43,162 nucleotides of DNA from a virus, in the IMG/VR virus record IMGVR_UViG_3300033388_001016, positions 1 to 43,162 of that record. One strand, written 5' to 3'. A program made the position numbers and the translations under genes. Positions 4,469 to 37,852 of this stretch are shown piece after piece. Position 1 is the stretch's first letter; each line of letters begins with the position of its first letter. The notes under the pieces are model-generated. The model made no database searches and was not told the DNA's origin. It worked only from the letters and a program-made list of their open reading frames with translations.

Positions 4469-6796
4469 TCAGTCTTCCGTGGGGTTTTCTTTGTTGATTG
4501 TTACTTCGTTGATTAGTACTTCATCAACTGTTGGTGCAGGTAGTGCTGCTTTAGAAGGAATTATCGTTAAATTGAGTTCTCCGTCTACTACATCAACCTT
4601 AACTCTGCCGCCATTCTGCAAATCACCGAATAGAATCTCTTTCGAAATCGGCTGCTTGACTTTTTCTTGAATCAATCGTGCCATTGGCCTTGCGCCCATC
4701 TTCGGATCATAGCCTTCAGTAGCTAGCAAGTTTCGCGCTTTTACAAGACACGATACAGAAATCTTCTTGCTTGCAAGCATATCGTTGAGTTTATCAAATT
4801 CTCGACTAACGATAAGCTTCATTTCTTCCATGCCTAACTTATTGAACTTGATTATGCCGTCGATTCTGTTGCGGAACTCTGGAGCAAAGTGCTTCTTGAG
4901 TGCTGCATCATCTTCGCCAACCTTTACTTGATCTCCGAATCCGATGTTGAGTTTTTCACTCTCTGCCGCACCCAAGTTAGATGTCATTAGAAGAATCACG
5001 TTTGTAAAGTCAATCGTCTTGCCTGTGCTGCTAGTCAATCGACCGTCATCCATGACTTGTAGAAGAACCTGCGTGACTTCTTGTGCAGCTTTTTCAATCT
5101 CATCTAACAACAGTACGCAGTTAGGATTGTTTTCAACTTTCGAAATCAACTGTCCACTACCTGCTTCACCTTCGCCATGACCGACGTATCCTGGAGGAGC
5201 ACCGATCAATCGTGCAACACTGTGCTTTTCTTGGTACTCAGACATGTCAAAACGAACAAGCTCTACGCCGAGCGCCTCAGCTAATTGTTTTGCAAGGAAT
5301 GTTTTACCAACGCCCGTCGGACCAAGTGAGAGATACGATCCGATTGGTTTGCTCTCGTCCCGAAGTCCACTCTTGCTGATTTCGATAGCTTCAACTAACG
5401 TGTTGATTGCCTCAGCTTGACCGTATACACGATCCTTGAGTTTAGAATTCAGCGTTGAAATTGCATCGTTCTCTTTAATGTCAATCATTTCAGTAGGCAT
5501 CTTCGCAAGCTTAGATACAGTCTTGATAATCATGTCCATATCGACTTCTGGAATTTCTGCTAACTTCGCCTTCGCGCCAGCTAAATCCATGATGTCGATT
5601 GCTTTGTCAGGACGGAACTTGTTCTTCATGTACCGTTCTGACAGATCAACCGCAGCGATTAGCGTACCCTTGTTATATACTACACCATGAAACTTCTCGT
5701 AATATTTCTTGAGTCCAGCTACAATACGCTTTGTATCTGACACACTAGGCTCAGTTACTTCGTACTTACCGAAGCGACGTTTCAGTGCCTTGTCTTTTTC
5801 AAAGTTCGTTTCGTATTCATCGAATGTCGTAGCACCGATGCAGCGCAATTCACCTTTAGCCAACATCGGTTTGAGAATATTACCTGCATCCATCGCGCCA
5901 TTGCCGCCAGTACCTGCGCCCATAATCATGTGAATCTCATCAATAAACAGGATTACGTTGCCTTTCTTCTTGATGCTGTTGAGAACTTTCTTCAGACGTT
6001 CTTCAAAATCACCGCGATATTTCGTGCCAGCAACTAGCGCACCTATGTCAAGGCTGTATACTTCTTTTGCTGCGAGTGCGTTCGGAACTTCTCCGTCAAC
6101 AATCTTCTTAGCAAGCCCTTCTGCAAGTGCTGTCTTGCCTACGCCGGGGTGTCCGACATAAACAACATTGTTCTTTTTGCGTCGTGCTAGAATCTCAATT
6201 GTGTCTTCGACTTCCTGCTCTCGTCCAACGATAGGATCAATGAGACCACTCTTAGATTCAGTGTTAAGATTGCGACAATATGCATCTAGCGCATCATCAA
6301 GCTCTGCTTCACTTTGACTACCATCATACTCTTTGAGATATTCTACTAGTCGTTCACGATTCACTCGTCCTTTCTGTATGAAGAAAAGCGCATGACTATG
6401 TTCCTCGTTCATTATGCTCAGAAGTAATCCGTACGTTGTGATTTCAGGACGACCGGCGAAAACATATTGTACTAATGCGCGTTGAAACACGCGAGTCAAG
6501 GCAGTCGTATGATCTGCGCCACGATAGCCGACTTGCTGGTCTAATGGAATTTCTAAGTTAGCTGTGTTTAGATGATTCTCAACTTCATTGCGAATGATAT
6601 TAGGACGGCCGCCTATGTCAGTGAGAATATTCTGTAAGTCTTTTTCGTGCAATAGTGACCACAGTAAATGTTCAACTGTCACGTATTCGTGATAGTTTTC
6701 AGTAGCGAATATGTGCGCTCGCTCCATAACATTATTTACTGCTTCATTATTTCGGTTCGGCTCTTCGCCGCCGACTCCGTCAGGTGTTACACTCAT
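4469..6796 (-). CDS. clpA: ClpA-type AAA+ unfoldase
   Basis: The product is 775 aa, close to the usual ClpA length (about 750-760), with ATG 6796 and AGGAG upstream. Domains in order: an N-terminal Clp repeat domain (about 15-160); a first AAA+ module with Walker A GHPGVGKT near 215 and Walker [12 protein letters not shown]; a second module with GPTGVGKT near 490, [10 protein letters not shown] and the arginine-finger region [10 protein letters not shown]. Between them is the pore/substrate segment [12 protein letters not shown] loop NIGFG near residue 615 is where ClpA, ClpX and ClpC carry the IGL/IGF tripeptide that docks on ClpP, so the protein should work with a peptidase rather than as a ClpB disaggregase. 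No long ClpB-type middle coiled coil is present. A J-domain gene lies just upstream and a ClpP gene is at 37232-37852. Role: ATP-dependent unfolding of substrates in the host cytoplasm. Confidence 0.93.
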
Positions 6797-6805
6797 TTAA
6801 TTCTC

Positions 6806-7573
6806 CTATGTATCAAATGTTTTACGATGTTTAACTTTCAGTATACTCTCTTTTTCCGCATCTGTCAAATCATCAGGAATTGTCATTGCCACTTGTATTA
6901 GCAAATCTCCGCGACGATTTAATTCAGGGTTAGGCATTCCTTTTCCTGGGACACGTACAAGTTTTCCATATTGTATGCCTGCGGGAATTTTTACTTTTAC
7001 TTTATTGCTGTCGATATTTGTAATCCCACATTCAACGCCTAGCATTGCTTCAATTGCAGAAATTTCGATTCCTACTAATAAATCATCTTGTGAGCGTTGG
7101 AATCTGTGGTGACGTTGTACATTTATGACAATGATAAAATCAGCAACTTGCAAATGATTGCCGCTGCGCACCCCTGCAGGAATATTGAAAGGTTCGCCGT
7201 TTAGTGACCGCGTAGTACCTGAGAATGCTTCCTCTAGCGTGATATTGACCTGCGCCATTTGTTGTTGGCGTCGTTGACTAAAGCCTCCGCCCATTGCTTG
7301 TCGAAGAATATCGTGTAAGCTTTCGCCGCCTTGACCGTGAGTAGTGTACGTAAAATTGCCTTGCTGGCGTTGTCGAGGATTGTCATACTCAGCTTTTTTC
7401 GCTGGGTCTTTGAGTGTCTGATAAGCGTTGTTTATTTCTTGGAATTTTTCTTTCGCACCTGTACCCGTATTGCGATCAGGATGATACTTCTGGGCAAGCT
7501 TACGATATTGCTTTTTAATGTCTGCTGCCGAAGCATCTTTTTGGACACCAAGCACATCATAATAATTGTTCAT
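6806..7573 (-). CDS. DnaJ/CbpA-like J-domain co-chaperone
   Basis: The product is 255 aa. ATG 7573 has GGAAGAG upstream. Residues 1-65 form a J domain (YYDVLGVQKDAS, then HPD at 31-33, which stimulates DnaK ATPase). A short linker with MGGGF is followed by two beta-rich C-terminal substrate-binding domains (about 105-240), including KVKIPAGIQYGKLVRVPGKG and the GDLLIQV strand. The CxxCxGxG zinc finger of classical DnaJ is absent, so this is a type II (CbpA-like) J-protein. It is shorter than CbpA (about 306 aa). It lies nine nt upstream of the ClpA-like gene and is almost certainly co-transcribed, suggesting that it delivers substrates or recruits host DnaK. Confidence 0.9.
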   Translation of the reverse strand: MNNYYDVLGVQKDASAADIKKQYRKLAQKYHPDRNTGTGAKEKFQEINNAYQTLKDPAKKAEYDNPRQRQQGNFTYTTHGQGGESLHDILRQAMGGGFSQRRQQQMAQVNITLEEAFSGTTRSLNGEPFNIPAGVRSGNHLQVADFIIVINVQRHHRFQRSQDDLLVGIEISAIEAMLGVECGITNIDSNKVKVKIPAGIQYGKLVRVPGKGMPNPELNRRGDLLIQVAMTIPDDLTDAEKESILKVKHRKTFDT

Positions 7574-7575
7574 AC

Positions 7576-7938
7576 TTACTCTTCCGTATTAGACTCCTCG
7601 ACAAGCGTATCCGCCTCAGGAAGAATCTCTCTGTAATAAATAATTACGTTTTTCTGTTCCTTAACGTAACGTATAATTTCGCCAACATTCAACGAAAGAT
7701 TTTCATATCCTTTCGCAGACAAGGCAAATAGCACAATTTCTTGATCGGGATAATCTGCTAATAGCTTTTCAATCTTTGCCCGATTAAACACCGTCCAATC
7801 TACATTGCGCATTGATAGCTGCGCAGGCACTGGCGGATGTATTACTGTCTGTTGCACCACGTCTGCTTGTTGTTTAACTTTAACACTTCCGCAAGCAGAA
7901 AGCAATAGTATTGTGGAAATAAGTAGGAATATTCTCAT
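7576..7938 (-). CDS. Lipoprotein, candidate outer-membrane spanin (Rz1-like)
   Basis: The product is 120 aa. It begins with a lipoprotein signal peptide (MRIFLLISTILLLSAC, lipobox LSAC, Cys 16), followed by a periplasmic domain with VIHPPVPAQ just after the anchor. Proline near the anchor is usual in o-spanins. The start ATG shares a TAATG with the stop of the upstream gene, an inner-membrane-anchored coiled-coil protein. That adjacency is the classic layout of a two-component spanin that disrupts the outer membrane at lysis. At 120 aa it is long for an Rz1, so another envelope lipoprotein role remains possible. Confidence 0.6.
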   Translation of the reverse strand: MRIFLLISTILLLSACGSVKVKQQADVVQQTVIHPPVPAQLSMRNVDWTVFNRAKIEKLLADYPDQEIVLFALSAKGYENLSLNVGEIIRYVKEQKNVIIYYREILPEADTLVEESNTEE

Positions 7939-8378
7939 TATTCTGCGTCCTTTACGAAATCAGCGCCTGGTTTTGACACATACGTAAGCGGGTCAGTGAT
8001 TTCTTCCAGTTCATTAAATACTCGCTCTGTAGCAGCATTTACGCGCCTTTCGATTAGGCCAGGTTTGCGTTCTGCAAGCGCCTTAAGATCATGTTCCGCG
8101 AAAATATCAATTGTCGCCTCTTGCTCTTTTCTGATTTGTACTGATGATGCTGCAAGTTCTTGTATTGCAGCTTGTTGCTTACGAATACTTTCCTGCATGA
8201 ATTTGAGATTAGCCTCTGCTGAATTTGCGCGAGCAGTTTGAGCAGCAACTTCTTGGTTGGCTGTTGCAAGTTTGTCTTGTGAATATTTGAAATATGCTGC
8301 GGAACCTGCAAGAACTACTAGGAGAACAATTCCCATATACATTGATAGGCCACCGAAGCCGCGTTGTTTGTTGAGCAT
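7938..8378 (-). CDS. N-anchored coiled-coil protein, candidate inner-membrane spanin (Rz-like)
   Basis: The product is 146 aa with ATG 8378 and AAGGAG upstream. There is one N-terminal membrane span (about residues 13-30, MYMGIVLLVVLAGSAAYF) and then a long Ala/Gln/Glu-rich coiled coil (about 35-95). The C-terminal domain is charged. This is the topology of Rz i-spanins: N-in, with a coiled coil in the periplasm. The next gene is a lipoprotein overlapping by TAATG, which supports the pairing. No holin or endolysin is seen nearby, so the lysis assignment rests on topology and adjacency only. Confidence 0.6.
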   Translation of the reverse strand: MLNKQRGFGGLSMYMGIVLLVVLAGSAAYFKYSQDKLATANQEVAAQTARANSAEANLKFMQESIRKQQAAIQELAASSVQIRKEQEATIDIFAEHDLKALAERKPGLIERRVNAATERVFNELEEITDPLTYVSKPGADFVKDAE

Positions 8379-12060: not shown

Positions 12061-12179
12061 ATAGTGTAGATGAAATATACCAATTTCTTATTAAACGCAC
12101 ACTCGCTCACTATTCTATTGGGCACAGCGTACTACGACCTCATCACAATTACTCACAAGCCTTTAATGGAGAATAACCA

Positions 12180-12905
12180 ATGGCAAGAACAAAAAAGAAA
12201 AGGAATGGGCGCATACTTCGCATCCAAGAAGCACCAAGGAAGGAGATCAGCCAAAAACGTAAGAACTATGTAAAACTTATCCCGCGCAACATTGCGCAAG
12301 AAGAATATATCGCGAATCTGCACGATCAAGACCAACGAATCGTCATCGCTACAGGCCCCGCAGGAACGGGCAAAACCTACCTAGCAGTACAGAAAGCAGT
12401 ACAAGAATTTATGAATAACAACGTATCTCGCGTTGTTATTACGCGCCCCGCAGTTACAGTGGATGAGGATCACGGCTTCCTGCCTGGGACGATTGAGAAG
12501 AAAATGGCTCCTTGGGTACGTCCGCTTATGGATGTATTCGAGGAATATTATAGCCCTAAAGAGATTTCACTAATGCTTGAAGAAGGCACAATTGAGATTT
12601 GTCCTCTTGCCTATATGAGAGGACGAACTTTCAAGGACTGCGTTATCATTTTTGATGAGGCACAGAATACCACAACACCACAGATGAAAATGGCTCTGAC
12701 TCGCATCGGTGAAGGTACACGTATGTATATCACAGGGGACTTGAAACAGTCCGACTTAAGGAGGGAAAATGGATTGTATGATTTCTTTAAGAAGCTCGAG
12801 GCTCGTAGTTCACTTGCCATATCGCTGACTAGCTTTACGCAGGAACATATTGAACGAGATCCTATAGTAACCGAGGTTTTACGGTGTTACGGGGACGAAG
12901 ATTAA
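12180..12905 (+). CDS. phoH: PhoH-family P-loop ATPase
   Basis: The product is 241 aa and one of only three plus-strand genes in the window. ATG 12180 has GGAG eight nt upstream. Walker A GPAGTGKT is at 59-66, the PhoH signature ITRPAVTVDEDHGFLPG around 87-103 and Walker B CVIIFDEAQN around 154-163. A GDLKQSDL motif follows. The N-terminal 35 residues are basic. PhoH proteins are common in marine T4-like phages; they are P-loop ATPases of the helicase superfamily whose role in infection is unclear. A candidate structured RNA follows the stop and then convergent genes begin. Confidence 0.93.
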   Translation: MARTKKKRNGRILRIQEAPRKEISQKRKNYVKLIPRNIAQEEYIANLHDQDQRIVIATGPAGTGKTYLAVQKAVQEFMNNNVSRVVITRPAVTVDEDHGFLPGTIEKKMAPWVRPLMDVFEEYYSPKEISLMLEEGTIEICPLAYMRGRTFKDCVIIFDEAQNTTTPQMKMALTRIGEGTRMYITGDLKQSDLRRENGLYDFFKKLEARSSLAISLTSFTQEHIERDPIVTEVLRCYGDED

Positions 12906-13035: not shown

Positions 13036-13266
13036 TTATACCAAGCTCTCACTTATGACATGATAACCGATTGTTCCCTGAGGATCTTTCAGCATACGCC
13101 TGAAATATTCTTGCTCAGTCATATTCGTTTCACGAATTTGCCAGTTACTACCGCCACATATTTTACAGCTACCTGTTGACGAGGTTGGGTCTTCTAATTC
13201 TTTAATAAGAGAATGCGCGCCGCAATCTAACTTAGCGAGACACCTGTATTCAAGCATATTAGCCAT
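13036..13266 (-). CDS. Small protein with CxxC pair
   Basis: The product is 76 aa. I use ATG 13266 (MANMLEYRC), which overlaps the end of guaC by eight nt, rather than an upstream start deep inside guaC. Cysteines at about 8 and 14 and a CKICGG pair at about 34-37 could form one zinc site. The rest is a short helical tail ([13 protein letters not shown]). No family is recognised. It is the last gene of the guaC transcript. Confidence 0.55.
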
Positions 13267-14320
13267 TGCTATCTGTCCCGTATACGTTATTAAGTTGGTT
13301 ACGAACACGAACGAATGTCGTGCGTTTTGATAATTCTTTGAGCGCAGGGCTACCTGTGTAGGTACATGCTGACCGAACTCCGCCTAATATGTCTTTCACA
13401 GTATCTTCAACATCACCTCTGTAAGGAATAAGGACACGCTTGCCTTCGCTTGCACGATAGCCTGTAAGCCCGTCACCGTGTTTGCTCTGTGCGGTTTCGC
13501 TACTCATACCGTAGAACTCGACATATGGATAATCGCCGTTCTCAGAAGTGATTTTACCGCCACCTTGATCGTGACCTGCTAGCATTCCGCCAAGCATTAC
13601 AAAGTCTGCGCCAGCACCAAATGCTTTCGCTACATCCCCAGAACAAGTACATCCGCCATCAGCGACAATAAGACCTTTCAGTCCGTGTGCTGCATCAGCA
13701 CATTCGATAACTGCTGATAGCTGAGGATAACCTACTCCTGTTTTCTTGCGCGTTGTGCAGACACTTCCTGGGCCGATCCCAACCTTTACAATGTCAGCAC
13801 CAGCTAGAATAAGTGCTTCCGTCATATCTGCTGTGACAACATTGCCTGCAATGATTACCTTAGATGGGAACTTCTTGCGAACTGTCTGCACAAAGCTAAC
13901 GAAATTTTCTGTGTATCCGTTAGCAACGTCAATGCAAATATAATTAATCTCCGGAAATGCAGAAATGAGATTTCTTGTTTTTAGAAAGTCTGCATCAGAG
14001 ATACCTGTTGAAATAGCTACGTTCTTATGCTCGGCTGTTGGTCCCGCGTCTGTTATCATAAAATCGCGATAATCGTTCATGTCGTAATGCTTGTGCAAGC
14101 ATGTGAACATATTAAACTTCCACAACGCATGAGCCATTTCAAATGTACCTGTTGTGTCCATGTTAGCAGCCATGATAGGAATGCCGCTGTACACTTGTGG
14201 TGAATGGCGAAAAGTAAATTCACGTTCTAAGCTTACGTCTTTGCGTGAAACTAATGTGCTACGCTTCGGACGTATCAATACGTCACTGTAATCAAACTTT
14301 GTGTCTTCTTCGATTCTCAT
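13259..14320 (-). CDS. guaC: GMP reductase
   Basis: The product is 353 aa (E. coli GuaC is 347). It begins [20 protein letters not shown], very like bacterial GuaC, and has the IMPDH/GMPR barrel motifs: [21 protein letters not shown]. The catalytic loop [11 protein letters not shown] has the active Cys at 188, followed by [17 protein letters not shown] and [11 protein letters not shown]. It has no CBS domains and its length and N-terminus fit GMPR rather than IMPDH. The reaction is NADPH-dependent deamination of GMP to IMP, feeding guanine back toward adenine nucleotides. The start overlaps the upstream stop as ATGA. Phage-borne GMP reductase is uncommon; here it probably rebalances the purine pool for AT-rich DNA. 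Confidence 0.93.
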
Positions 14321-17058: not shown

Positions 17059-17700
17059 CTAGTGCCAGTCGATTTCCTGTATTCCGTGTTGTTTCAAGTA
17101 GTCGTTTGTTCGACTAAACGGCTTGCTTCCGTAAAATCCTCGATAAGCAGAAAGTGGAGACGGATGTGGAGATTCAATAACAAGATGTTTGCTCTGGTCA
17201 ATCAAACCTGTGCTAAGTTGTGCTTTCTTGCCCCATAAAATGAAAACAAGATTTTCACGTTTCTCGCTAAGTGTGCTTATTGCTTCGTTAGTAAGATGAT
17301 GCCAACCATATCCTTCGTGACTTGACACTTCACCCTCTCTCACTGTCAATGTTTTGTTCATTAAGAATACACCTTGCGCTGCCCAATCACGCAAACTGCC
17401 TGCTGTACGTGTAATACCTAAATCATCTTTTAGTTCTTTGAAAATGTTTTTCAATGATTTCGGTAGTGGTTGTATGCAAGCGTTGACTGAAAACGCAAGA
17501 CCGTTAGCGTGTCCTGCTGTTGGATACGGATCTTGGCCTACGATAACAACTTTAACATCTTCAAATTTAGTGAGGTCAAAAGCGCGCATAATGTGATGGA
17601 TCTGAGGTGCAATGCGTTTGCCTGAGTTAATGTCTTCGGCTAGGTGCGCTGCCACAACCTTGTCAGCATGTTTAAAAAATTCTAAATCTGTCCAGTTCAT
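17059..17700 (-). CDS. ung: Uracil-DNA glycosylase, family 1
   Basis: The product is 213 aa from ATG 17700, just after the upstream stop. A TTG three codons earlier would overlap it. Motif A GQDPYP (55-60) carries the catalytic Asp 57. The motif-B loop SPHPSPLSAYRGF has the catalytic His 179 and the DNA-minor-groove intercalating region. LSxxLKNIFKEL-like and VFLMNKTLTV segments are as in bacterial Ung (about 229 aa). The enzyme removes uracil from DNA to start base-excision repair. Its presence argues that the phage DNA contains thymine, not uracil, and may protect a genome made under high dUTP. Confidence 0.95.
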   Translation of the reverse strand: MNWTDLEFFKHADKVVAAHLAEDINSGKRIAPQIHHIMRAFDLTKFEDVKVVIVGQDPYPTAGHANGLAFSVNACIQPLPKSLKNIFKELKDDLGITRTAGSLRDWAAQGVFLMNKTLTVREGEVSSHEGYGWHHLTNEAISTLSEKRENLVFILWGKKAQLSTGLIDQSKHLVIESPHPSPLSAYRGFYGSKPFSRTNDYLKQHGIQEIDWH

Positions 17701-17701
17701 T

Positions 17702-18055
17702 TTATCCAAAATAATGATTTAGTAATCCGATCATTATGATTACTCCTGCTAATCCATTTACCACCATGAGCGCACGATCACGCCAAATAAATGATACCCA
17801 CCACCAAAGTGATGCGCCTACCAAGCTACCCCACAAATCAATTATGTGCAATTCTGGAATTCCTGTTGCCCTTGCTGACATAGCACAGACAATAACTGCT
17901 GTAGCGATCCATTTGACGTACCAATCAAGTGTGTACTTTGGTGTTGCACTTTTGACAATACGATCACTAGCTTCAATCTCTGGTTCATCTTCTGGATGCG
18001 CAGGACTAACGCTTGCATCATACGCCTTCGGCAATTTCCATTTAAATATTCTCAT
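17702..18055 (-). CDS. Polytopic small membrane protein
   Basis: The product is 117 aa with ATG 18055, overlapping the previous stop as ATGA. A hydrophilic N-terminus (1-44) is followed by three hydrophobic stretches: about 46-60 (WYVKWIATAVIVCAM), 72-88 (LWGSLVGASLWWWVSFI) and 94-115 (LMVVNGLAGVIIMIGLL). Tryptophans cluster at the interfaces. It is a small inner-membrane protein of a type met in marine T4-like phages. Function unknown. Confidence 0.65.
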   Translation of the reverse strand: MRIFKWKLPKAYDASVSPAHPEDEPEIEASDRIVKSATPKYTLDWYVKWIATAVIVCAMSARATGIPELHIIDLWGSLVGASLWWWVSFIWRDRALMVVNGLAGVIIMIGLLNHYFG

Positions 18056-22459: not shown

Positions 22460-22488
22460 AGTATAACACCTTTACGCTACGCTTACAA
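22460..22488 (-). promoter_or_regulatory. Probable sigma-70 promoter
   Basis: TTGTAA (22488-22483), a 17-bp spacer and TATACT (22465-22460) on the minus strand, just before ATG 22454. Nine of twelve positions match; the 17-bp spacing and position support it. Confidence 0.5.
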
Positions 22489-22975
22489 GTTTCTTAAGCT
22501 TGTCTTTGATGTCTTCTTTGATCGTTGTACCTGAATCAACTTCTTGACCGAAGTCGAATGAGGTGAACGTATTGCTCATACCGCTATATGCGTTTGCAGT
22601 AAAACCTGTGCATGAAGAAGCATTCGTTGTTATTGTTCCGCCTGTTGTCGTAGTTGGATTTGAAATTGTTACTGTTCCGCTTGTTGTTCCGCCTGGAATC
22701 CAGTACGGAGCCGCTGTTCCTGTTCCGCCGTAAACATAAGGGTTATCTGTAGTCGTCCACGTAGTATTTTGGCCTTCGATTTGTGCGAGTCTGCGCTGCA
22801 AGTCATCCATTGTTTCCATCATTTTAGTGAAGGGGCCTGGCTCGCAATCATCGTCGCTAAGGTTTAACGCCATGATAAACATGAATTTGCGTAGTGCGCT
22901 CTTGATTTTCTTATCGTCGCTAACGAGTGCAGCGTCTAGGAGCTTGATAAATTGCTCAAATTGTTCGTCGTTCAT
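22472..22975 (-). CDS. Late protein with Thr/Gly-rich linker
   Basis: The product is 167 aa. ATG 22975 has CGAGGA upstream and a GATAAATA late promoter 27 nt away. The N-terminal 75 residues are a helical domain (EQFIKLLDAALVSDDKKIKS, then TKMMETMDDLQRRLAQIEG). The middle is Thr, Gly and Asn rich (GGTTSGTVTISNPTTTTGG) and unlikely to be globular. The end is a short charged helix (IKEDIKDKLKKLVSVA). The late promoter and low-complexity linker suggest a virion-associated protein, but this is inference. Confidence 0.6.
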   Translation of the reverse strand: MNDEQFEQFIKLLDAALVSDDKKIKSALRKFMFIMALNLSDDDCEPGPFTKMMETMDDLQRRLAQIEGQNTTWTTTDNPYVYGGTGTAAPYWIPGGTTSGTVTISNPTTTTGGTITTNASSCTGFTANAYSGMSNTFTSFDFGQEVDSGTTIKEDIKDKLKKLVSVA

Positions 22976-23002
22976 AAATGTATCCTCGATTAAGTATACA
23001 TT

Positions 23003-23010
23003 TATTTATC
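23003..23010 (-). promoter_or_regulatory. T4-type late promoter GATAAATA
   Basis: An exact GATAAATA on the minus strand in the 54-bp gap before ATG 22975. A three-codon open frame (ATG TAT ACT TAA) follows at once in the leader. Confidence 0.7.
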
Positions 23011-27210: not shown

Positions 27211-27584
27211 TAGATATGTATTCCGTTGTGAATGAAAGAAAATGCGCTGTTATCAGCACCGTAAATAATGTGATTCAAAACTGCGATGCCATCTTCCTTA
27301 GCAGCATCAGCAATCGTATAAGTAGTGTGCAAGTCAGCATCACTAGGACGCAAACGAGCCTGCTCTGTATCAGGATGATTGTGTACAAGAGTCATTGCTT
27401 TAGCACCGAGCCTGCGCGCTTCACTCAAAACACTCTCTAAGCTAATGCCACGAATCGAACCGTGATCGCCACTCGCAATCATCTTAGTACCGATGCACTC
27501 TTTGCCATCAGCACCATGATAAACAACACCAAACTTTTCGATTGGTGCTGTTTTGATCGTGTTAAGAAAGTTTGCGAGATTCAC
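27210..27584 (-). CDS. RadC-like JAMM/MPN domain protein
   Basis: The product is 124 aa from GTG 27584, which forms GTGA with the previous stop and has GGAG eight nt upstream. The metal motif is LVHNHPD (His 68 and 70), then PSDAD (Ser 81, Asp 84). An upstream Glu (SLES) and a downstream LNHIIYG strand follow, exactly the order of the RadC JAMM domain. Three extra residues lie between the His pair and the Ser. RadC JAMM domains are of uncertain role; phage copies are often linked to anti-defence or processing functions. Confidence 0.8.
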   Translation of the reverse strand: MNLANFLNTIKTAPIEKFGVVYHGADGKECIGTKMIASGDHGSIRGISLESVLSEARRLGAKAMTLVHNHPDTEQARLRPSDADLHTTYTIADAAKEDGIAVLNHIIYGADNSAFSFIHNGIHI

Positions 27585-27907
27585 GAATACTTCTCCGTCA
27601 AACGAGCGAGTTCAGCGCGTTCTGCTTCTTCCGTAGCTGCCTTTGCAATCTTCGCAGCGCCACGAGCCTTACGTGCTTTTGCGAGTCGCTTGTTACGCTC
27701 AAGATCCGTCTCCTGACGAAACCAACGAACCTCAACGTCAACGTCCTCGTAATTCTGTGAAAAGTCAAGAATAGCATCTGCGCCATATTCGCGCTTGAGG
27801 TCGTTGACAAACATAGCAACATCATCGAGCGAGCCATCAAAATCGTACATGCTCAAGCTCTTAGATTCTCGTACTTCTAAATATCGCTTTGCCATGATTT
27901 TGTCCAT
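27581..27907 (-). CDS. First gene of a sigma-70 transcript; unknown
   Basis: The product is 108 aa from ATG 27907, or 104 from ATG 27895 (MAKRYLEVRESKSL). Neither start has ideal Shine-Dalgarno spacing. It is charged: strand LEVRESKSLSMYDFDGSLDD, then an Arg/Ala helical tail (RNKRLAKARKARGAAKIAKA) like a basic coiled coil. It lies about 13 nt downstream of the predicted start of a perfect sigma-70 promoter. Function unknown. Confidence 0.55.
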   Translation of the reverse strand: MDKIMAKRYLEVRESKSLSMYDFDGSLDDVAMFVNDLKREYGADAILDFSQNYEDVDVEVRWFRQETDLERNKRLAKARKARGAAKIAKAATEEAERAELARLTEKYS

Positions 27908-30472: not shown

Positions 30473-30501
30473 ATTATACGCGAATATGCTTTACGAGTCA
30501 A
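30473..30501 (-). promoter_or_regulatory. Sigma-70 promoter
   Basis: TTGACT (30501-30496), a 17-bp spacer and TATAAT (30478-30473) on the minus strand. Eleven of twelve positions match consensus. The start is predicted at the ATG region of the next gene (30466). Confidence 0.8.
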
Positions 30502-30929
30502 TACCCGTGTTTCAGCATAAGCTTGAATTTGTCTTGTTCTGAGACTCGCATATAGTTTGCTAGTAAACTTGCGCCCTTGTAACCGAATGATTCGAATGCT
30601 AATACAGCCTTATGCGCGTTGAAATCTGCTGTTGCACTTTCGATTATGAATTCACCTGCTTCATAATAGGAAAAGAACATGATCTGTCCGAAAGGAAGCG
30701 GCGTGTCATTCAGTTCGTCTAGGTCAATGAGTAAATCTAATGATTCCTCATCCCGCTGCGTGAAACCGACCTCTTGTCGAACATATCCTGGGGCGAGGAC
30801 ATACGTGTGCGTTTCTATATCCGAATGCATAAGATCCACCTCCTGTAAAAAGTGAAGGTGGATCTTCATTTCCTCGTCGTTCGTTATCCAACTAAACGTT
30901 CTTGGAGAGTTAAACTGTCCTGCCATCAT
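30498..30929 (-). CDS. Unknown protein with a possible nested start
   Basis: The product is 143 aa from ATG 30929 (ATGA with the upstream stop). Beta-rich beginning (KIHLHFLQEVDLMHSD), then an acidic middle (DEESLDLLIDLDELND) and a mixed C-terminus ending FKLMLKHGY. Met 34 (ATG 30830) is preceded by AGGAGG eight nt upstream, a far better ribosome site than the first ATG, so a 110-residue form is possible. The Shine-Dalgarno lies in a hairpin. No family is recognised. Confidence 0.5.
   Translation of the reverse strand: MMAGQFNSPRTFSWITNDEEMKIHLHFLQEVDLMHSDIETHTYVLAPGYVRQEVGFTQRDEESLDLLIDLDELNDTPLPFGQIMFFSYYEAGEFIIESATADFNAHKAVLAFESFGYKGASLLANYMRVSEQDKFKLMLKHGY
30831..30866 (-). promoter_or_regulatory. 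Hairpin masking an internal Shine-Dalgarno
   Basis: On the minus strand an 11-bp perfect inverted repeat (30866-30856 with 30841-30831) encloses the AGGAGG at 30844-30839 that precedes ATG 30830. The 14-nt loop holds the first three bases of AGGAGG and the stem covers the rest. It may regulate internal initiation. Confidence 0.5.
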
Positions 30930-31663
30930 TCTTGCAATCCGTTTGACCAGTCAGGCGCGAAGTTCTTGAACTTGCGACCCTTCAGCTTGTGCTTGAAAAC
31001 GTCGCGAGCAACCCAATCCTTAAATCCTGCAGGAATGTGTCTGCGATCTTTCACAGCCATTTTTGTGATAATGCGAATCCAAGTCGGGGCATCAATGGTG
31101 CAGTTCTGCATATCTTCAATCGTTGCGTAGTTCATAATATGCGGCTTACGCAAAACAAGCTGACGCAAGTGTGATTGGTTGCGAATAGTCTTAATGTCAA
31201 GGCGTCGTGCTGCATTACGACAAAAGCCCAGCAAATTCTCCCATTCTCGCGTTCCGAATAATGCAAGCTTCTCGTCACTAATATTCTCGTACATGTTCTG
31301 CACGATCTTGTTGTTGCCCAACTTAAAAACATGCTCATAATGCTTAAGCTTGAGGTCTTTCGCATTCCAGTCAAACTTTTTCATAGCAGCAATTGTCGGA
31401 CGGTGGCATAGAATGATTGTGCGATGGTCAGCTTTTAGCTTACTCACATCAATCATCTTGCGTGTCTTCGGAAACGCAACCAACAGTTGTGCTTGCGTAT
31501 CGGCTGACAACTTTTTAATGTCTCCGAGACGTTCAAGAATTTCCTCGGGCGTCATTTTGGCAACTACTCGATTAGCAATGCTAGTATTAGCACCCTTGAA
31601 TAGCACCTCAGAAACCTTTTGCATCTGAGTGCCGCGGAAATAATTGTTATTGTTCCAACTCAT
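30926..31663 (-). CDS. Unknown basic helical protein
   Basis: The product is 245 aa from ATG 31663 (MSWNNNNYFRGTQMQK); TAAGGAT lies just upstream. The earlier open part would overlap the previous gene. Basic and largely helical (ILERLGDIKKLSADTQAQLL, MKKFDWNAKDLKLKHYEHV, KFKNFAPDW). The alternating Lys/Arg and helix pattern suggests nucleic-acid or membrane binding. No known domain. Confidence 0.5.
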   Translation of the reverse strand: MSWNNNNYFRGTQMQKVSEVLFKGANTSIANRVVAKMTPEEILERLGDIKKLSADTQAQLLVAFPKTRKMIDVSKLKADHRTIILCHRPTIAAMKKFDWNAKDLKLKHYEHVFKLGNNKIVQNMYENISDEKLALFGTREWENLLGFCRNAARRLDIKTIRNQSHLRQLVLRKPHIMNYATIEDMQNCTIDAPTWIRIITKMAVKDRRHIPAGFKDWVARDVFKHKLKGRKFKNFAPDWSNGLQE

Positions 31664-31668
31664 TATCC

Positions 31669-32178
31669 TTACCTCGCTAGGCCACACTTGTTCAAGCGTT
31701 CCATAAGCTCCATCTTCCAGTCATTGTACGTTGCGACATGAACACCATCATCTAGTGTTCGTGTGATTCGATGCTCTCCGAGCAACTTGTCGTGAACGTA
31801 AGTCACACCCTCAGGCAACTTATGAAGCCTGCGCAGCAATGGTGCGGTATCGAAAATAAATGCAGGCAAAACGACTGCAACAGAAGTCATTATTCCGCCG
31901 AGTGCGTCTTCCGACTCAAAGAACGGAGCAAACGGAAACGGGTTATTAGTGTGATGCAAAAATGCGCACCAGTCCTTGATACCCTTGTTGTCGCCACCGT
32001 TCAAGCAAATTATCGTCTTATGATTCTCTGCCCAATCGTATAGCAATTCGTTGTCAGTAGTTTCGCCAAGCGAAGCAGCCATCATCAACTCGTTCTGCGA
32101 ATGAGCAGGCTGAATGCCCTGCTGTATCGAAGACAAGTAAAAGTTTGTAAATGTGTACAAGCGTAGTTCTTCGTTCAT
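31669..32178 (-). CDS. Unknown phage protein with SIQQGIQxAH motif
   Basis: The product is 169 aa with ATG 32178, one base after the previous stop. Residues 5-30 (LYTFTNFYLSSIQQGIQPAH) look like a phage-conserved block followed by a WAENHKTIICLNGG strand and a later GVTYVHDKLLG. It is an alpha/beta protein of about the size of small hydrolases, but no catalytic set is sure. Confidence 0.55.
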   Translation of the reverse strand: MNEELRLYTFTNFYLSSIQQGIQPAHSQNELMMAASLGETTDNELLYDWAENHKTIICLNGGDNKGIKDWCAFLHHTNNPFPFAPFFESEDALGGIMTSVAVVLPAFIFDTAPLLRRLHKLPEGVTYVHDKLLGEHRITRTLDDGVHVATYNDWKMELMERLNKCGLAR

Positions 32179-36985: not shown

Positions 36986-37235
36986 GCTTATTACCTGCGA
37001 ATTTCAACTTAAATGCGAATGCGTCTTTTGGATCATCAAACGTGAATCCAATAAAGCTTGCTCGCGCATTATCCAGCTGTGCTTGCTGGTCATGTTCAGT
37101 AGCAGCCATGAAGAAACTGCGCCAGTCATTCTTTGAGTAATCGTGACACCACTTCCTTAACTCCACCGCCGCTTCCAAGTGCTTACTTTGACTTGGAATG
37201 GCGTGTGAAGGTATCTTTATAACTACTGTGTTCAT
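36978..37235 (-). CDS. Small unknown protein
   Basis: The product is 85 aa. ATG 37235 overlaps the ClpP stop as ATGA. Mixed, with [20 protein letters not shown] and [20 protein letters not shown]. It is translated with ClpP and so a possible adaptor for it, but without sequence evidence. Confidence 0.5.
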
Positions 37236-37852
37236 TCAACCTTTAAAATGTCTTCTCTTGAATTAGCTACGCAATCTGCAAATCCGAGTTCCACAGTTTC
37301 CGTTGCAGTCAAGAACTTATCGCGCTCAAGCATTTCTGCAATCGTTTCTTTCGTTAATCCAGCAGAGTTGTGTCGTGCGTATAGCGTATTTAGCTGGTCT
37401 TTGATGCGAAGCACCTCATTTGCGTGTATCTGGATATCAGTCGCTTGGCCGCCGTAGCCTGCGCTAGGTTGATGAACCATCGTTCCTGCATTCTCAAGAA
37501 TGTAACGATGACCTGGTTCGCCTGAGCTTGCAATGAATGAACCCATTGATGCAGCATTGCCGATAACCATTGTGTATACTGGGCTAGAGATAAACTGCAT
37601 TGTGTCGTATACTGCTAGACCTGCTGTTACACTCCCGCCTGGACTGTGAACATACATGTTGATTGGCTTTTCTGGCGCGTCAGCTTCTAAGAAAAGTAGC
37701 TGCGCTACGATAATATCTGCCATTTCTTCTGAAACTGCACCCCGGAAAAACAGCACACGTTCTTTTAGCAGTCTGCTAAACAGGTCATATGACCGCTCAC
37801 CTTGAGGGGTCTGTTCTACTACCATTGGAATCAAAAAATTGCTACTAGTCAT
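37232..37852 (-). CDS. clpP: ClpP-type serine peptidase
   Basis: The product is 206 aa (E. coli ClpP is 207). ATG 37852 has AAAGGA upstream. The catalytic triad is in place: Ser 102 in NAASMGSF, His 127 in MVHQPSAG and Asp 178 in ERDKF. The [12 protein letters not shown] loop and [15 protein letters not shown] oligomer helix are typical. It begins [19 protein letters not shown], as in mature ClpP. With the ClpA-type unfoldase at 4469-6796 it can make an ATP-dependent protease for phage or host proteins. A plus-strand late gene diverges from it. Confidence 0.95.

Follow-up and report, generated by a model that had tools for sequence, protein, structure and literature searches.

Does a gene of this phage carry a second start codon in its own reading frame that is kept closed by RNA structure, and if so, what opens it? 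The gene in question lies on the minus strand of the window, the 43,162-nt stretch analyzed here, which is a 43-kb piece of an uncultivated large tailed phage with nearly all of its genes on that strand. The phage is represented in metagenomes only; its clamp loader shares 57% identity with the counterpart in PA5oct-like Pseudomonas phages. The original prediction, made from the letters of the DNA, held that a perfect Shine-Dalgarno (SD) sequence is hidden in a hairpin within this gene and marks either a folding-controlled start of a shorter protein or the true start of the gene. The features of the locus are collected in Table 1.

Table 1. Features of the focal locus, with positions in the window
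Feature	Position	Strand	Remarks
Host gene, long form, 143 aa	30498..30929	-	No known family
ATG of the long form	30929-30927	-	Overlapped by the upstream gene's stop codon (ATGA)
Putative short form, 110 aa, from Met34	30498..30830	-	Same frame and stop; based on sequence; the relative retains both start and SD
Internal ATG	30828..30830	-	Directly abuts the 3′ arm
AGGAGG Shine-Dalgarno	30839..30844	-	8 nt 5′ of the internal ATG; first in strength among the strand's 941 ATG contexts
Hairpin 5′ arm, AAGATCCACCT	30856..30866	-	Masks the SD; U-G and C-G pairs extend it to 30854
Hairpin 3′ arm, AGGTGGATCTT	30831..30841	-	Spans the spacer plus the 3′ half of the SD; pairing continues to 30843
Upstream gene, unknown function	30926..31687	-	253 aa from GTG 31687, or from ATG 31663 (with SD)
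Sigma-70-like promoter, TTGACT-17-TATAAT	30473..30501	-	Conserved; lies across the end and stop codon of the focal gene

The predicted AGGAGG is present on the minus strand, 8 nt ahead of the in-frame ATG at 30830 in the gene 30498-30929, and the sequence spanning SD, hairpin, and start reads, 5′ to 3′, AAGATCCACCTTCACTTTTTACAGGAGGTGGATCTTATG. Its modelled SD duplex (-11.6 kcal/mol) ranks first among the 941 minus-strand ATGs, ahead of a runner-up at -10.2 kcal/mol. The ATG of the long form, which was said to lack such a site, reaches -3.3 kcal/mol. If anything, the hexamer is underrepresented, with five copies observed in the window against 9.1 expected.

The 11-nt inverted repeat that had been described as partly enclosing this SD is perfect, with arms at 30831-30841 and 30856-30866 separated by 14 nt. 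As RNA, the stem is lengthened inwards by a U-G and a C-G pair to 13 pairs, so the GGAGG of the SD is itself paired. The 61-nt region folds at -24 kcal/mol (z -5.07; none of 200 shuffles folded as well), making this the most stable non-terminator hairpin detected in the window. When simulated first-order Markov windows of matching composition were scanned for 11-bp stems with loops of 3-20 nt, about 0.1 such stems were found per window (1 in 8). The minus strand of the real window holds two: the focal hairpin and a terminator followed by T6. A terminator reading of the focal hairpin was ruled out, as it lacks a T-run. At 37 °C, the modelled pairing of GGAGG is at least 0.97 in both the window and the related genome described below, so that the ribosome-binding site is sequestered in the model, and pairing of the AUG is partial (0.41 and 0.66 in the two genomes). 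The predicted inhibitory structure thus covers a downstream ribosome-binding site inside a translated region, as in coupling by RNA unfolding.

Scans of IMG/VR returned a single relative with the focal gene, record 3300033143_002040 (126 kb), and a profile built from the C-terminal region of the focal protein recovered the same record. It is collinear with the window across most of the window's length; the focal proteins are 87% identical, versus approximately 53-68% for the products of adjacent genes. No homologues were found in GenBank phages, the scanned bacterial genomes, or 43 further viral records, and searches of Pfam and PHROGs gave no family above chance, so the comparisons below concern the gene in two genomes. 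A second close relative, IMGVR 3300033142_001028 (L018), apparently begins downstream of the locus and is therefore uninformative on the hairpin. A scan of IMG/VR for the hairpin pattern produced, besides the relative, matches at unrelated sites with no comparable start visible. We note that residues 63-143 of the focal protein (30501-30743, minus strand) are 98% identical in the relative, with neighbours at approximately 53-68%, which points to a recent exchange or else to very strong constraint.

Loss of the stem in a related phage would have argued against the predicted control, but hairpin, SD, and internal ATG are all retained in 3300033143_002040. The SD, its spacing, and the ATG are unaltered there, and the internal SD again ranks first, among 918 ATGs in the 40 kb examined. 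The two genomes thus share an in-frame internal start with its SD, as is characteristic of genes for two proteoforms. Codons 22-33, which encode the hairpin, differ at four positions, all amino-acid-changing and all at first or second codon positions; the peptide therefore differs while the codons of unchanged residues are identical. In the relative, a G-C pair of the stem has become G-U, a further U-A pair has formed on the inner side, the pair next to the outermost is broken, and the fourth change falls in the loop. A comparison of codon choice, as the original prediction had proposed, showed that none of the four changes in the hairpin codons is at a third position, whereas 32 of 44 are in the remainder of the gene (Fisher p=0.009). 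When 44 ORF pairs from the two genomes were surveyed in windows of twelve codons, 2478 windows had at least four amino-acid changes, and 23 of these were free of third-position changes. They are confined to three ORFs, namely the focal gene at its hairpin, 12153-12335, and 27581-27907.

We also recoded codons 1-40 synonymously according to the codon usage of the phage, leaving the protein unchanged (5000 trials per genome). Fold and SD were jointly reached in 0/5000 trials for the window and 1/5000 for the relative; the SD alone was reached by 4-5% of recodings, so the test by itself does not make the SD rare. The lack of third-position change in the hairpin codons, opposite to the pattern elsewhere in the gene, points to purifying selection that most likely acts on the RNA. 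Clear selection on RNA structure at an internal start is seldom seen in phage genes. As to the other two ORFs, 12153-12335 (minus strand), although seemingly conserved, shows first-position changes with fixed third positions and is the antisense shadow of a plus-strand PhoH-like gene at 12180-12905, and codons 5-24 of 27581-27907 (minus strand) show amino-acid changes without third-position ones near the gene start.

The same pair of genomes bears on where translation of the gene begins. The ATGA overlap with the preceding gene is present in both, which suggests that the long form is translationally coupled to that gene. Codons 1-21 of the long form contain no indels or stops, and 6/8 of their changes are at third positions (binomial p=0.02, a small test). 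These codons behave as coding sequence, which makes a translated long form likelier than a leader that is not translated, and disfavours the earlier suggestion that the internal ATG is the true start. Were the internal ATG nevertheless the sole start in vivo, the hairpin would sit in a 99-nt leader and repress translation until opened by a ligand, protein, or RNA. The strength of the internal SD (-11.6 versus -3.3 kcal/mol at the upstream ATG) and the conservation of SD and hairpin fit such a leader. We consider it unlikely, given the third-position bias, the absence of indels and stops, and the shared ATGA, and because the hairpin would remain shut without ribosomes arriving from upstream. 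An AlphaFold model of the focal protein (pLDDT 39.5) is too poor to judge whether it folds without residues 1-33. The SD, the in-frame ATG, the predicted hairpin, their conservation, the constraint on the RNA, and the coding character of the upstream codons are all derived from the sequences themselves.

On this basis we propose, with middling confidence, that the gene encodes both a 143-residue long form and a 110-residue form from Met34, and that the passage of ribosomes along the long form opens the internal start. Translation would be passed on from the upstream gene at the ATGA overlap, where the long form begins. The near-perfect internal SD would be shut by a hairpin whose stability keeps it from opening readily on its own; a ribosome on the long form would melt it in passing, and the opened site would let another ribosome load and make the short form. 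Since every long-form ribosome must melt the stem, a feature inherent in the layout, the internal start is proposed to be off by default, with short-form synthesis tracking long-form translation. Production of the short form, ribosome passage as the opener, and the biological roles of the two forms are what we infer here. More tentatively, the conserved in-frame hairpin may permit initiation at Met34 solely when the long form is being translated, which would fix the ratio of full-length to truncated protein, with the long form itself ATGA-coupled to the preceding gene. The two proteins are possibly antagonists. If the proposal is correct, one frame would yield two proteins in a ratio governed by ribosome traffic, which is a simple design, and structured internal starts of this kind would be overlooked by gene callers and in surveys of proteomes.

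A crude energy balance for the closed internal site (SD plus start codon minus fold) comes to +11.9 kcal/mol for the window, and for the relative to +5.4. These unfavourable values suggest that an opener is likely needed, but the measure is rough, because the long start of the relative also comes to +5.4, equal to its internal site. Control of the internal start by RNA folding remains the best reading of the conserved SD, stem, and ATG, and among the three openers originally listed (temperature, ribosome passage, and RNA binding), ribosome passage is the most plausible. Temperature is unlikely, and an RNA thermometer was rejected, since the model still has the SD core paired at approximately 0.7 or more at temperatures up to 80 °C and melting is not predicted in the physiological range. 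As to RNA or protein binding, neither the RegA (PF01818) nor the RegB (PF10715) family had a match in the three records, all of which are fragments. The hairpin can refold after a ribosome has passed, possibly faster than a 30S subunit can load, so internal initiation could be rare.

Other functions for the hairpin were weighed against ribosome-opened initiation. It might serve as an insulator that silences an accidental internal SD, leaving the long form as the sole product, and the modelled structure does leave the site almost inaccessible. However, CAA GAA GTT in place of CAG GAG GTG could erase the SD, and these are codons that the phage prefers; the maximal SD, the in-frame spacing, and the ATG are instead retained in both genomes, and we regard an insulator as quite improbable. 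The inverted repeat could also function at the level of DNA, as an operator, or as a processing site, with no part in translational control. A perfect inverted repeat within a gene would suit such a role, but its half-site has no second exact copy in the window, SD and ATG are placed exactly on the 3′ arm, and the G-C to G-U change in the relative is one that RNA can tolerate. We think this very unlikely.

A promoter within the gene could also give late transcripts that lack the 5′ arm and so free the SD. Escape through a late promoter belongs to the best-studied T4 mechanism, and in gene e late transcripts initiate within the hairpin (PMC3014915). Hairpins that sequester the ribosome-binding site are known for the T4 genes e, soc, 49, and I-TevI (PMC3014915), and as in these, the focal SD region is paired in a stem directly 5′ of the start codon, which should keep the 30S subunit from binding. 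The T4 hairpins differ in heading their own genes, whereas the focal one lies inside an open frame, and the focal 5′ arm carries no late-promoter motif. The phage does appear to have such an architecture elsewhere, at a hairpin (22974-23005) with GATAAATA just upstream. At the focal hairpin, a motif search for a late promoter that would remove the 5′ arm found none in place: neither TATAAATA/GATAAATA nor a sigma-70-like element lies ahead of the loop, and the 5′ arm itself reads GATCCACC. Escape of the T4 late type is thus not supported here, and we give it very little weight.

The proposed ribosome-opened start has relatives among established systems. In the holin gene S of phage lambda, translation starts at either of two in-frame codons, in a ratio influenced by an RNA stem-loop close by. 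The focal gene resembles it as a phage gene with two in-frame starts and an adjacent stem-loop; the lambda starts are two codons apart in a membrane protein, whereas the focal ones are separated by 33 codons. For MS2 coat-lysis and f1 VII-IX, an established model is that a masked start is unfolded by translating ribosomes (PMC12548453). There too, a start closed by structure is opened by ribosomes on an overlapping upstream frame, as proposed for the focal site, but two genes are involved, whereas here a single frame would give an N-terminally truncated product. N-terminal proteoforms of bacteria include SsaQ, CheA, InfB, and ClpB (PMC11005335), and RepR/RepR′ of plasmid pIGRK are an in-frame internal-start pair (PMC6854812). 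In such genes the SD of the alternative start is often stronger than that of the annotated one, and short in-frame forms may modulate or oppose the long form (PMC11005335, PMC6854812). The focal gene shares with these an in-frame internal start with a stronger SD than that of the annotated start; no conserved SD-masking hairpin appears in the passages of these papers that were considered, whereas here the hairpin is the clearest constraint. The parts are therefore known from the hairpins of T4 e/soc/49, the coupling of MS2 coat-lysis, and internal-start proteoforms, and the combination, a hairpin-masked in-frame internal start in mid-gene, is new.

A second start hairpin was observed at 22974-23010 (minus strand; the hairpin is also given as 22974-23005), at the start of gene 22472-22975. 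It has a 10-bp AT-rich stem and a loop containing GAGGA, adjoins the ATG, is preceded by GATAAATAA, and is conserved in two relatives (L016:6812-6848 and L018:1641). By analogy, it looks like early repression of the T4 gene e/soc type, which would end once late transcripts begin within the 5′ arm. GATAAATA recurs at 1175, 4401, 10208, 12012, and 23010 (minus strand), mostly shortly 5′ of the starts of structural or unknown genes, and probably acts as a T4-like late promoter in this group of phages. The hairpin at the start of 7938-8378, the third stable one of this kind, was dropped because it is not conserved in the relative.

The promoter at 30501-30473 is near consensus and is kept in the relative, although much of its spacer differs; it is positioned to serve the next gene and takes no part in the control by the hairpin. 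Judged by eye from their translations, further minus-strand genes of the window encode a Clp ATPase (4469-6796), a DnaJ-like protein (6806-7573), an IMP dehydrogenase/GMP reductase-like enzyme (13259-14320), a uracil-DNA glycosylase (17059-17709), and a ClpP-like protease (37232-37852).
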